Of a stretch of 64,000 nt of DNA, positions 60,440-64,000 are shown one piece after another (within the stretch, counting starts at the first letter, position 1; each line of letters starts with the position of its first letter). The stretch comes from Gluconobacter sp. Gdi (GTDB taxonomy: Bacteria > Pseudomonadota > Alphaproteobacteria > Acetobacterales > Acetobacteraceae): NCBI RefSeq assembly GCF_014132155.1, contig NZ_BLJQ01000004.1:1-64000 (forward strand), read 5' to 3'. Under the pieces are notes generated by a model that saw nothing but the letters and a program-made list of their open reading frames with translations, had not been told where the DNA came from and did no database searches. A program made the translations under genes and the position numbers.

Positions 60440-60925
60440 TCATCCCTCAGCGAGACGCTGAAGACCCACAAGAATGTCCTGGGGAGACGGAGGACATCCT
60501 GGAATAGCCCGACGGACCGGCGTGAGCGCTTTCAAGCCTCCCAAAGTGGCATAATTCGGCCCGAACATCCCGCCATCAACAGCGCAAGCCCCTACAGCCA
60601 CCAGACTTTTTCCAGCCGGCATCGCATTCCAGACCCGCTCAAGCATCTGAACACAGGCCCTGCCCATCGGACCCGTAACCAACAGCCAGTCGGCATCTGC
60701 CGGATCGGTAACGCGTGCGAAGCCATATTGCTCAAGAGCGAAAGCACTGCCGCATAAACTCTCCACTTCCATGGCGCAGCCTTCACATCCGCCGGTCTCC
60801 AATACGTACAATTTGATCGTATCGGGACGGACAGACGTGCCTTTGTCAGCAGATAATCTCCACCGCGAGACATTCAGGAAAGCGTGCAACACACTGAGTG
60901 GGCCCATAGTCTGCAATGCTGTCAC
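60440..60925 (-). CDS. NuoB/HycG-like small iron-sulfur subunit (Ehr-type complex)
   Basis: 161 residues, GTG start at 60925 overlapping the preceding stop (GTGA). The four cysteines of the proximal 4Fe-4S cluster are present: TGGCEGCAMEV (two), VGACAVDGG and PGCPPSP. It is the small-subunit partner of a complex I or group 4 hydrogenase-like enzyme. It ends the minus-strand operon that enters from the right edge. Confidence 0.85.
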   Translation of the reverse strand: MTALQTMGPLSVLHAFLNVSRWRLSADKGTSVRPDTIKLYVLETGGCEGCAMEVESLCGSAFALEQYGFARVTDPADADWLLVTGPMGRACVQMLERVWNAMPAGKSLVAVGACAVDGGMFGPNYATLGGLKALTPVRRAIPGCPPSPQDILVGLQRLAEG

Positions 60926-62361
60926 ATCGCCACTCCAGACGGGGCCAAAGCGAGAGACTTTAGCCCGGCGCTCAAACGCTCTGGAACCTCTCCCTGCAAC
61001 ACGCGATGCAGAACGGGCAGCAAAGAGACAGCCGGGTCTCGGGCATGGACAGACTCAATCTTCCCATTCTTCAGGCGGACCCAATACCAGACGTCACCTC
61101 TCGCCCCTTCAGCCGCGCCAATGCCTTCCTGCGTGGCTTCAGGTGCGGGCTCGTCATCATCCATGCCGATGCTCCCCAAAATCCGCTTAATTAAAGCCAG
61201 AGAGTCCCGGATTTCCGTCAAACGTAACGCATCTCGGGCCGCCGCATCGCCATCGCTTGAGCCTGTTGCCCGCAAAGCATCCAGCCGCATACCGACTTCC
61301 CTGCGACGTACATCCAGACTTCTACCTGATGCCCGACCGACCAGACCACCCACTGCAAATTCACGTGCCTGCGCGGGCGCCAAAACAGCCAGTCCCTTCA
61401 AACGGGGTGCAAATACGGATTGCAGTTCGCGCAGTTGCGCCATGCGAGAGTACATGACCTCCAGAACAGCTTGAGCCAGCGGAACGATTTCCAAACCAGA
61501 CCGCACACCCTCGCACGTAATCACGTCCGTCAGTCGGCGCGGTACGCCCTGCTCTGCACAAGCAGCGGCAATAGCCTCCCGCGCATGCTCACAGTGTGTT
61601 GCCAGCAGCCCCGCATCCACGGCACGTGCTGTTCTCGCCATATCGAAGAGGTGGACGGAAATTCGCTCGATTTCCAGAAGGATCATCCAGGCATCCCGCG
61701 TCCCTGGACCCGGCTGCAACCCGCGCGCTTGGGCAACAGCCCGGGAAAACGCCATTGGATGAGCAACAAAACCTCCAGCCGTCATACGGGAAACCAGCGG
61801 GAGTGCCTCTTCAGGCGACAATCCAACCATGCGTTGCAACACACCGCGATGAGCCAGCCCGGCATCGACGGCCAGCCCTTGCACTGCGCCGCGCACAACA
61901 TCAAAAGAGAGTTCGAGCGGACCACTCAATCCTGTTGTTTCCGCTCGCAGGCGGCTACGGCCCGCAGGCAAGGGCATAGCCTGCCCTCCAGGCCCCGGCC
62001 GTGAGGAAAGCGGCCATGTCGTTTCCCAGAAACCATCATCAAGGGCAGGACGACCATCTCCGCAGGCACTCATGGCCTCAACGCCCCAGAGATCATAGGC
62101 TACGCGTTCCCCCCACTCCGCCGCAGGGAAACGTGAAGATGGCGCCAGATAGCGACGATCTTCCACCGCCGTACTGGCCATCAAAGGGCAATCGCCGTCC
62201 AGCAACAGCACGTAAACACGCTGCTCATCCGCCCAGCAGGACAACAGTGACAAAGCTCTGCCGGGTGCAGTCAGCATCGCTTCCCATTGCTCGGGATCAA
62301 GATGGTAATGCGCCAGTGCAACCCGCTCACCACTCCGAATGATGCGTTCCATGCTCATCAT
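60922..62361 (-). CDS. NuoCD/HycE-like large subunit lacking NiFe ligands (Ehr-type)
   Basis: 479 residues from ATG 62361 (ATGA overlap with upstream stop). The N-terminal NuoC-like 30-kDa domain contains RFPAAEWGERVAYDLWGVEA (78-96). The NuoD/HycE-like part begins about 135. The first nickel-binding CxxC of hydrogenases is replaced by TAGGFVAH (194-201), and the C-terminal DPCxxC by DPAVSL (442-447). So it cannot hold a NiFe centre. This fits Ehr complexes, which lie between complex I and energy-converting hydrogenases. Confidence 0.83.
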   Translation of the reverse strand: MMSMERIIRSGERVALAHYHLDPEQWEAMLTAPGRALSLLSCWADEQRVYVLLLDGDCPLMASTAVEDRRYLAPSSRFPAAEWGERVAYDLWGVEAMSACGDGRPALDDGFWETTWPLSSRPGPGGQAMPLPAGRSRLRAETTGLSGPLELSFDVVRGAVQGLAVDAGLAHRGVLQRMVGLSPEEALPLVSRMTAGGFVAHPMAFSRAVAQARGLQPGPGTRDAWMILLEIERISVHLFDMARTARAVDAGLLATHCEHAREAIAAACAEQGVPRRLTDVITCEGVRSGLEIVPLAQAVLEVMYSRMAQLRELQSVFAPRLKGLAVLAPAQAREFAVGGLVGRASGRSLDVRRREVGMRLDALRATGSSDGDAAARDALRLTEIRDSLALIKRILGSIGMDDDEPAPEATQEGIGAAEGARGDVWYWVRLKNGKIESVHARDPAVSLLPVLHRVLQGEVPERLSAGLKSLALAPSGVAM

Positions 62362-63449
62362 GGCCGCCACCCAGGCGCTGGATGCCATGCCAGAAGCAGC
62401 GGCCCGCAAAGACCGACAAGCAGAAGAACAACCTCAACGGCTGGAACAATGCCACCCTTGAGACTAAGACCGGACGGCATCAGCCCGGCCAGACGAACCT
62501 GCCTCAACCCGGGAAGTAGACAAACGATCATCAGCACGAGGAGCAGTGGCTCGAGAGAGCGACCAATCGCCAACAACGCGCAAAAGACCGGCCAAGGCGC
62601 TACACCAGCAGCAACCATTTCGTATCGACGTCCGTCATTCTGACGTTCCAAAACAGCCAATCCGACAGACGCCACTAAAAGAAGGACAATTGCACTTCCT
62701 TCACCAACTGCCGCGGCAATCGCCCCCAGCGAGGACAGAATGGGCAAAAAGACACCGCGCCCTCGGGACTGGCCTGCCATCCGCATGATCAGAGTCCCCA
62801 ATCCAGCCACCAGTACCAGAATATGAACGAGCGGGTGTCCGTCCAGTCGCAACATCAGCAGAATGGCCGCAAACCTCAAGCCCGTATCAAGCAACACGGC
62901 ATCAGGTTCCGGGACGGGAGACGGCCCTAAACCAGCCATCATGCACAACCCGACTGTCAGCAGAACTGGCCCCAGAGGAGACTGGTCCATCGACAGCAGG
63001 GACGCCCCCAGCACTCCCAGAATAACGCCACCGAGACGTGACCTCGCCATATCCCAGACAATGGCAGCCTTCTGCGCCCCCCGGCCCTCGCGCCAAGCCC
63101 AGAGAACCGTTCCTGCGCCACACAGCACCGTAACGGCGAAAGCTGAATGAACATTCAGGGCCATCAAAGCGCATCCAGTCACCAGAAAGGGCAAAATACG
63201 TCCTACCCGGTCTCCCGCAGGCGGCAACAGAAGCGGGATGACTGCAACCACGCAGGAGCACGCGGCGGCGAGCGCATCCGCACCCGGCATCAGCCAAACT
63301 GCAACGGGGGTCATGAGAGCACCAGCAATCGCAAACGTGCGACTGCTGACAGCCTGTCGGCCTGGCGGGGTCATGAGCAGCAGAAAAGCGGCCAGAAGCG
63401 GCCAGACTGTCACGGCAAACAGCGTTCCAACGGGAGCAAGTGGATGCAT
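62358..63449 (-). CDS. HyfF/NuoN-like membrane subunit, shortened (Ehr-type)
   Basis: 363 residues from ATG 63449 (TGATG overlap). About eleven hydrophobic segments. The block GLCMMAGLGPSPVPEPDAV (about 190) matches the antiporter-subunit motif GxxxKxGLxPxHxWLPDA in layout, but the functional Lys is replaced and the His is missing. It is shorter than the usual 480-500 residues. A role as a proton channel is uncertain; it may be a structural relic. Confidence 0.7.
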   Translation of the reverse strand: MHPLAPVGTLFAVTVWPLLAAFLLLMTPPGRQAVSSRTFAIAGALMTPVAVWLMPGADALAAACSCVVAVIPLLLPPAGDRVGRILPFLVTGCALMALNVHSAFAVTVLCGAGTVLWAWREGRGAQKAAIVWDMARSRLGGVILGVLGASLLSMDQSPLGPVLLTVGLCMMAGLGPSPVPEPDAVLLDTGLRFAAILLMLRLDGHPLVHILVLVAGLGTLIMRMAGQSRGRGVFLPILSSLGAIAAAVGEGSAIVLLLVASVGLAVLERQNDGRRYEMVAAGVAPWPVFCALLAIGRSLEPLLLVLMIVCLLPGLRQVRLAGLMPSGLSLKGGIVPAVEVVLLLVGLCGPLLLAWHPAPGWRP

Positions 63450-63970
63450 CAGTTTTCCTCCACCCGCCGCCAGGCAAGGCGTGGCAACAGCGTCATCCCC
63501 AGTGCGCCCAGAACACCCCATAGCGCTACAGCCGCAGCAAAGAACGGCCACGACTGAAGAACACACGCCATGACAATCAGTCCGTCAGCAGCCATCAGCA
63601 GCCCTGTAAACTGCACAAGGGCTGGGCCGAAAGCAGCGCCACAAAGGCCCACCAGAACTGCTCCCGCTCCCAACACAGGCGCCAACCCAAGACTCGCACC
63701 TGAGAGACCTAGTGCCAGCAGCAGAAGCAACGCCCCGACCACAGGCAGCACGGCACCGCGATCTGGCACATGACCAGCGAACCGCCTGAGCCATATCCAG
63801 GCACCAATATTCAGACCGATTAATGCGATCGAGGTGAGCAGCGCCAGAAGCCCTCCACAGACTGTCGCCCCTGCAAAAGCACATACCAGACCGTAAAGCG
63901 GCAGGCCTCGTCCATCTCGCCCCAGCCCGGCAAGCGCCAGCAGCAGGAGCACGCCAAATCCGACAATCAT
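63449..63970 (-). CDS. HyfE-like small membrane subunit (Ehr-type)
   Basis: 173 residues, about six membrane segments, Leu/Ala/Gly-rich. It resembles hydrogenase-4 component E (HyfE), a NuoK-related subunit: LTSIALIGLNIGAWIWLRR and FTGLLMAADGLIVMACVL. It overlaps genes on both sides. Assignment rests on topology and operon position. Confidence 0.7.
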   Translation of the reverse strand: MIVGFGVLLLLALAGLGRDGRGLPLYGLVCAFAGATVCGGLLALLTSIALIGLNIGAWIWLRRFAGHVPDRGAVLPVVGALLLLLALGLSGASLGLAPVLGAGAVLVGLCGAAFGPALVQFTGLLMAADGLIVMACVLQSWPFFAAAVALWGVLGALGMTLLPRLAWRRVEEN

Positions 63971-64000
63971 GTCGCAAACCTCCCGGCGAGCGCGAGCAAA
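63967..64000 (-). CDS. C-terminus of the next Ehr operon gene (partial)
   Basis: On the minus strand the last codons before the HyfE-like start read LLALAGRFAT and stop at 63967-63969, overlapping the next ATG as ATGA. The neighbouring gene in HyfE-containing operons is usually a HyfB/NuoL- or NuoH-like membrane subunit, but nothing else is visible here. Confidence 0.5.
   Translation of the reverse strand, partial: LLALAGRFAT

Follow-up and report, generated by a model that had tools for sequence, protein, structure and literature searches.

A conserved Ehr-type operon of acetic acid bacteria that has probably lost the known ion-pumping mechanism

What is left for a relative of complex I and the group 4 [NiFe] hydrogenases to do once its catalytic site and most of its proton-moving residues are gone? 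This question is raised by an operon of Gluconobacter sp. Gdi located at the end of a 64,000-nucleotide stretch (bases 1–64000 of contig C4, NZ_BLJQ01000004.1; hereafter the window) of a genome of 3.55 Mb; among named records, Gluconobacter cerinus NBRC 3267 comes closest, with 98% identity over the large subunit. The operon consists of six genes on the minus strand, arranged in the order hyfB-hyfC-hyfE-hyfF-hyfG-hyfI, and runs from C4:66128, beyond the window end, to C4:60440. We consider that it encodes a conserved derivative of the Ehr complexes that is unable to pump by the known mechanism, a reading to which we give a probability of about 0.68. The six subunits would form a complex that descends from an Ehr ancestor and appears specific to a clade of acetic acid bacteria within the Acetobacteraceae. 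At the level of sequence, the operon is shown to lack NiFe ligands and the quinone Tyr and His and to have lost most ion-path residues, with an intact four-Cys 4Fe-4S site and purifying selection on all six genes. Ehr complexes as such have been described (PMC6349859, PMC7894505, and PMC10284858, each in excerpt). That of Geobacter sulfurreducens is encoded by GSU0739-45 and its subunits were detected in proteomes according to the excerpt of PMC7894505, so that a preliminary description of the window went too far in stating that Ehr complexes are known only as sequences.

The same description had recognized an Ehr-type gene set devoid of NiFe ligands, which is borne out by Pfam matches, the residue comparisons given below, and the predicted fold. 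When 52 Ehr-like large subunits are aligned with HyfG and NuoD of E. coli, the NiFe Cys positions, four in all, fall on T194, G197, A473, and G476 of the window HyfG. The segment TAGGFVAH (residues 194–201) does span the first CxxC site, as had been proposed, with Cys1 aligned to T194 and Cys2 to G197. In contrast, DPAVSL (442–447), which had been taken for the second site, is not that site; the second CxxC pair aligns to the C-terminal LALAPSGVAM, which is likewise without Cys. No Cys is found at any of the four positions in the 17 canonical Ehr rows, and among the 35 rows of the derived clade only 2 have one, at the second NiFe position. The positions of the complex I quinone Tyr and His are taken by A195 and S146, respectively, and are occupied by Tyr in 0/52 rows and by His in 1/52. 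The His residues of the GPxH and GHF motifs, present in all 17 canonical rows, are lost in 35/35 and 32/35 derived rows, respectively; the HRG His is retained in all 52. The AlphaFold model of HyfG (predicted local distance difference test score, 88.6) has as its top PDB match chain 7z0s_E of E. coli formate hydrogenlyase, followed by complex I chains.

In the small subunit the cluster site is preserved. As the preliminary description had it, HyfI carries all four cluster cysteines, and the alignment shows that the first two are spaced C-x2-C as in E. coli HyfI, unlike the CC of NuoB. The C-x2-C, C, and G/HCP pattern is present in 70/70 small subunits that adjoin the operon. We also sought the gene in 14 genomes in which it is missing beside the large subunit (8) or is likely so by kinship (6). 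It is present in all 14: in 5 it follows on the same strand at a distance of ∼4 kb downstream, and in 9 it is unlinked; 13 of the 14 separated proteins have all four cysteines. Nine of these genomes contain a second, weaker small-subunit match, presumably NuoB; in one of them (G086) the two scores lie close together (8e-16 and 2e-12). Where the small-subunit gene has moved in Asaia-type genomes, it precedes a gene for an NrtR-like NAD repressor, with an ATGA overlap in L186, L191, and L075. Of eight retrieved loci whose small subunit is unlinked (L184–L188, L191, L074, and L075), six show the order I-NrtR-nadABC; L074 and L075 show I-NrtR.

The membrane arm was compared, with residues numbered against E. 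coli Hyf, to canonical Ehr loci from the same family and class, leaving out of the residue counts two rows that represent the wrong open reading frame (HyfF of L092 and HyfB of L097). Canonical HyfF contains Glu5, Lys7, and His7 in 8/8 rows and Lys12 in 7/8; canonical HyfB contains Lys7 in 7/7 and Lys12 in 6/7; and the two Glu of HyfC and the LENG Glu of HyfE are found in 8/8 and 7/8 rows. In the derived clade, each of the four HyfF residues is present in 0/36 rows, as are Lys7 (in transmembrane helix 7) of HyfB (with three gaps) and the LENG Glu of HyfE; the second HyfC Glu is found in 0/39. The window proteins conform to this pattern, HyfF being without the proton-channel Glu/Lys/His/Lys and HyfE without the LENG Glu. 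Thus, the loss of the antiporter Lys and His that had been noted for one membrane subunit is real, but the main oddity had been missed: to judge from these alignments, residues retained in canonical Ehr are gone from all four membrane subunits, not from one, and this is a clade-wide derived state. Counting columns in which K, D, E, or H is conserved at 90% gives the same picture. From 8 canonical to 18 acetic sequences the number falls from 9 to 0 in HyfF, 12 to 1 in HyfC, 5 to 1 in HyfE, and 6 to 2 in HyfB, compared with 29 to 20 in HyfG; the acetic set is the more diverse (mean HyfF identity 0.42 vs. 0.60), and the canonical HyfB set here includes the wrong-frame row L097. The antiporter subunits of Gluconobacter are also shorter, with 363 residues in HyfF (526 in E. 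coli HyfF) and ∼434 in HyfB. In profile–profile comparison with its canonical counterpart, acetic HyfC gave a significant match (E 5.8e-9), and the HyfB of one bridging sequence, L083, was found from the canonical and acetic sides alike.

These losses are not those of a decaying locus. We estimated omega by the Nei–Gojobori method against four near species. For the six genes it is 0.02–0.13 relative to G. cerinus (dS 0.11–0.20) and 0.03–0.16 relative to Gluconobacter frateurii, Gluconobacter thailandicus, and Gluconobacter japonicus (dS > 1, hence rough), and the flanking pepA, holC, and aldo/keto reductase genes give 0.02–0.07. At larger distance omega climbs to 0.19–0.35 for hyfB and hyfC, and dS of hyfI is saturated for three of nine species. 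The coordinates and sequence confirm that the genes overlap in series, by ATGA at B/C, C/E, and F/G, TGATG at E/F, and GTGA at G/I. The omega values indicate that all six genes are under purifying selection, in agreement with the initial judgment that the operon is not decaying. In-frame stops flagged for the large subunits of three genomes (G001, G012, and G196) are apparently situated beyond the gene itself, the frames being open across the 471–476 matched residues (L063, L064, and L077). No such stops appeared in the family-wide search for G001 and G196 or in the PF00346 search for G001 and G012.

The large subunit was found in 25/25 Gluconobacter genomes searched with the window protein (its own genome included) and in 26/26 searched with PF00346, and all six genes are present in 19/20 named Gluconobacter loci, the remaining one being cut by a contig end. 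Across the family, 212/249 genomes and 87/102 genera contain it (E ≤ 1e-60; canonical and stripped forms together), and 35/385 sampled genomes of the class, 4 of them from the family, have an Ehr-like large subunit (E < 1e-70). Ehr has also been reported in metagenome-assembled genomes of comammox Nitrospira (PMC10284858, in excerpt). Its presence in an aerobe, which the preliminary description called notable, is therefore not exceptional. When 54 large-subunit rows were placed in a tree with NuoD as the root, by a quick method and with several long branches in the result, the 17 canonical rows (SH-aLRT 99) and the 35 stripped rows (SH-aLRT 96) form separate clades, and one state change suffices; L083, L091, L094, and the class rows carried no state, and L092 was given the lost state on the basis of its HyfB and HyfC rows. 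Named members of the stripped clade are Gluconobacter, Bombella, Saccharibacter, Parasaccharibacter, Asaia, Swaminathania, Acidomonas, Tanticharoenia, and Acetobacter orleanensis. We see an even chance that the acetic acid bacteria converted a complex I-like ion pump to an iron-sulfur machine of the membrane that does not pump and serves a new function, the ion path having been lost once in their ancestor and the six proteins since kept under selection even where the small-subunit gene moved. One 0.9-Mb genome with a completeness rating of 100% has an Ehr large subunit (G436:C21:12997-14430) as its sole match, with no NuoD-like second match at E ≤ 1e-15.

Comparison with known systems places the operon closest to Ehr. 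It has the Ehr subunit set in the order B-C-E-F-G-I shown by those canonical loci that were read. Like Ehr, it has no NiFe Cys in its large and small subunits, four Cys in the small subunit, and HyfB/C/E/F-type membrane subunits encoded in one operon (for B and E, the assignment relies solely on gene order and on bridging sequences). It differs in that canonical Ehr of the family, which served for the comparison in place of Geobacter sequences, keeps the HyfB/HyfF Lys-Glu-His, the acidic residues of HyfC, the HyfE Glu, and two large-subunit His, most of which the acetic clade has lost, and in its shorter antiporter subunits. To our knowledge, the antiporter ion-channel residues, including the Lys of transmembrane helix 7 missing from HyfF and HyfB, are not part of the published definition of Ehr, although they are part of the proposed coupling. 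E. coli hydrogenase-4 and formate hydrogenlyase (Hyf and Hyc; 7z0s) provide the closest fold of the large subunit and a homologous membrane arm, but the acetic operon is without their NiFe site, HyfA/HyfH, HyfD/J, and formate dehydrogenase. We rejected a hydrogenase reading, both CxxC pairs being absent and HypD being found in 0/26 Gluconobacter genomes (other Hyp genes were not searched for); beyond the window the operon holds only the rest of hyfC, and hyfB. A remnant of complex I was rejected as well. The NuoB, NuoCD, NuoH, and NuoN-like parts are shared, but NuoEFG/I, the quinone Tyr and His, and most channel residues are absent from the operon, and true NuoD occurs in 1/26 Gluconobacter genomes (E 6e-113; G021:C189:54406-55218), where it occurs in addition to the Ehr large subunit. 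A search of open-license PMC literature found neither this operon described for acetic acid bacteria nor any pump-stripped Ehr. It is a variant of known Ehr complexes whose function may be new.

How such a complex might work can be outlined as follows. It would still assemble on the membrane, with an arm that is antiporter-like but non-pumping, and a single 4Fe-4S cluster at the interface of the small and large subunits would relay electrons without pumping, or would sense redox state. A soluble carrier would be the donor; ubiquinone, bound at an altered site, or another membrane partner might be the acceptor. No recurring redox partner was seen in the nine flanks of canonical Ehr loci, the translations of which were read by eye with no family search. 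A non-pumping electron relay is our tentative choice of function, favored over a structural scaffold, which we think unlikely, and over redox sensing, which we think somewhat less likely again. In the scaffold model there is no redox turnover and the complex is kept because it stabilizes a different respiratory assembly, a role already proposed for the deranged bc1 complex of Acetobacteraceae. That complex and the COX1-like proteins described in the excerpt of PMC10715153 give the family a precedent in which functional residues were lost yet the complex was retained, and the loss of most known functional residues here fits that model. However, FeS and heme ligands were lost in the deranged bc1, as the excerpt describes it, whereas in acetic Ehr the FeS ligands stay, in 13 of the 14 separated small subunits as in all 70 beside the operon. 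Moreover, complex I is the client proposed in the bc1 case, and because Gluconobacter is mostly without it, a bc1-type client for a scaffold is missing.

Several observations weigh against loss of the known pumping mechanism or against a uniformly conserved complex. The first HyfC Glu position is E in 13/14 Gluconobacter rows (15/39 derived rows), the HyfC Asp position is acidic in 6/14, and the window HyfC has Glu at 3 of the 7 positions compared, in a gapped part of the alignment; these remaining acidic residues slightly lower our confidence that the complex cannot pump by the known mechanism. Ion pumping could persist through them, or through new residues, and both the retained antiporter fold of HyfF and purifying selection on the membrane subunits would accommodate this, but with so few conserved K/D/E/H columns left in the 18 acetic sequences we regard it as improbable. 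Nine Asaia-type sequences retain somewhat more such columns (3 each in HyfB and HyfC, 1 in HyfE, 2 in HyfF, and 27 in HyfG). The profile comparisons of acetic with canonical HyfB (E 0.25), HyfF (0.12), and HyfE (0.46) are not significant, so that the residue positions in B and E depend on MAFFT together with gene order and bridging sequences; the identity of HyfF is supported by its fold. The unlinked small subunit of G041 (L111) has Ser at the first cluster Cys. As for a substitute metal site in the large subunit, no cysteine is invariant over the 21 rows of alignment A1, yet Cys268 is found in 31/35 derived rows (the canonical residue being mostly Ala) and Cys257 in 21/35 derived and 10/17 canonical rows; a new partner or metal site at these residues is possible. 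Finally, 37/249 family genomes are without the large subunit at the threshold used, and Ehr genes are split or shortened in three draft Asaia loci (L175, L180, and L183), so the complex is dispensable somewhere in the family. These absences and split genes, together with the higher omega that hyfB and hyfC reach in more distant comparisons, are what a relic retained by chance and now being lost might leave. We disfavor that explanation, to which we allow a slim chance, given the large subunit in all 26 Gluconobacter genomes, the low omega against near species, and the translational overlaps. The split genes, like the HyfB split over two frames in canonical locus L097, may be sequencing frameshifts. 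A tie to NAD(H) status, suggested by the coupling of the small-subunit gene to nrtR and nadABC in Asaia-type genomes, has the slightest chance of all in our estimate: nadC of the Bombella/Saccharibacter group is only near the operon, a few kb downstream on the opposite strand (15/15 named loci: L157–L160, L162–L171, and L182), an NrtR match lies elsewhere in 11/26 Gluconobacter genomes and is lacking in 15/26, and an old neighborhood broken between G and I accounts for the linkage. In that group nrtR is visible in the seven loci that extend far enough.

Loss of the catalytic site and most proton-moving residues despite selection thus points to a job still to be discovered for the probably non-pumping Ehr derivative. 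Relatives of complex I serve in arguments over which residues make the coupling mechanism, and a clade from which the antiporter-subunit and most other residues have been removed, with fold and FeS subunit kept, is a natural negative control. It would also be a second type of deranged but retained respiratory complex in a family already known for deranged bc1. Gluconobacter is genetically tractable and in industrial use.

Table 1. Genes of the Ehr-type operon (contig C4 numbering, which equals window numbering up to 64000)
Gene product	Position	Strand	Length and basis of assignment
hyfI/ehrS-like small subunit	60440..60925	−	161 aa; GTG start; PF01058 (Oxidored_q6/NuoB) 3e-24
hyfG/ehrL-like large subunit, 30 kDa and 49 kDa parts fused	60922..62361	−	479 aa; PF00346 (Complex1_49kDa) 1.6e-11
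hyfF-like antiporter subunit	62358..63449	−	363 aa; antiporter fold
hyfE-like membrane subunit	63449..63970	−	173 aa; gene order, relatives in 29/41 loci, residue table
hyfC-like membrane subunit	63967-64827 (window holds 3′ end, 63967..64000)	−	286 aa; profile vs. canonical HyfC
hyfB	64824-66128 (outside window)	−	∼434 aa; gene order and bridging sequences

The start of hyfF was assigned to the ATG within the TGATG overlap rather than to the GTG at 63566 of the longest open reading frame. From reading the translations, with no search, we take the genes upstream of the operon to be an aldo/keto reductase, a holC-like gene, and pepA, and the downstream gene to be a ROK-type kinase. None of the six genes between the reductase and the kinase encodes a ferredoxin-type subunit; the ferredoxin-like HyfA/HyfH and formate dehydrogenase are absent from the operon, unlinked copies not having been searched for. 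The hyfB gene seems to initiate just beyond the window at a CTG codon (G000:C4:66126-66128; L032:9126-9128), which is in the identical position in 20/20 Gluconobacter loci examined; three additional loci, which belong to a side clade, could not be anchored. From the upstream stop to codon 12, 15 of the 20 loci contain no ATG, GTG, or TTG, and the other 5 have TTG at codon −12. Purifying selection sets in at the CTG, with pN/pS of 0.38 in codons 1–25 and 1.25 upstream.

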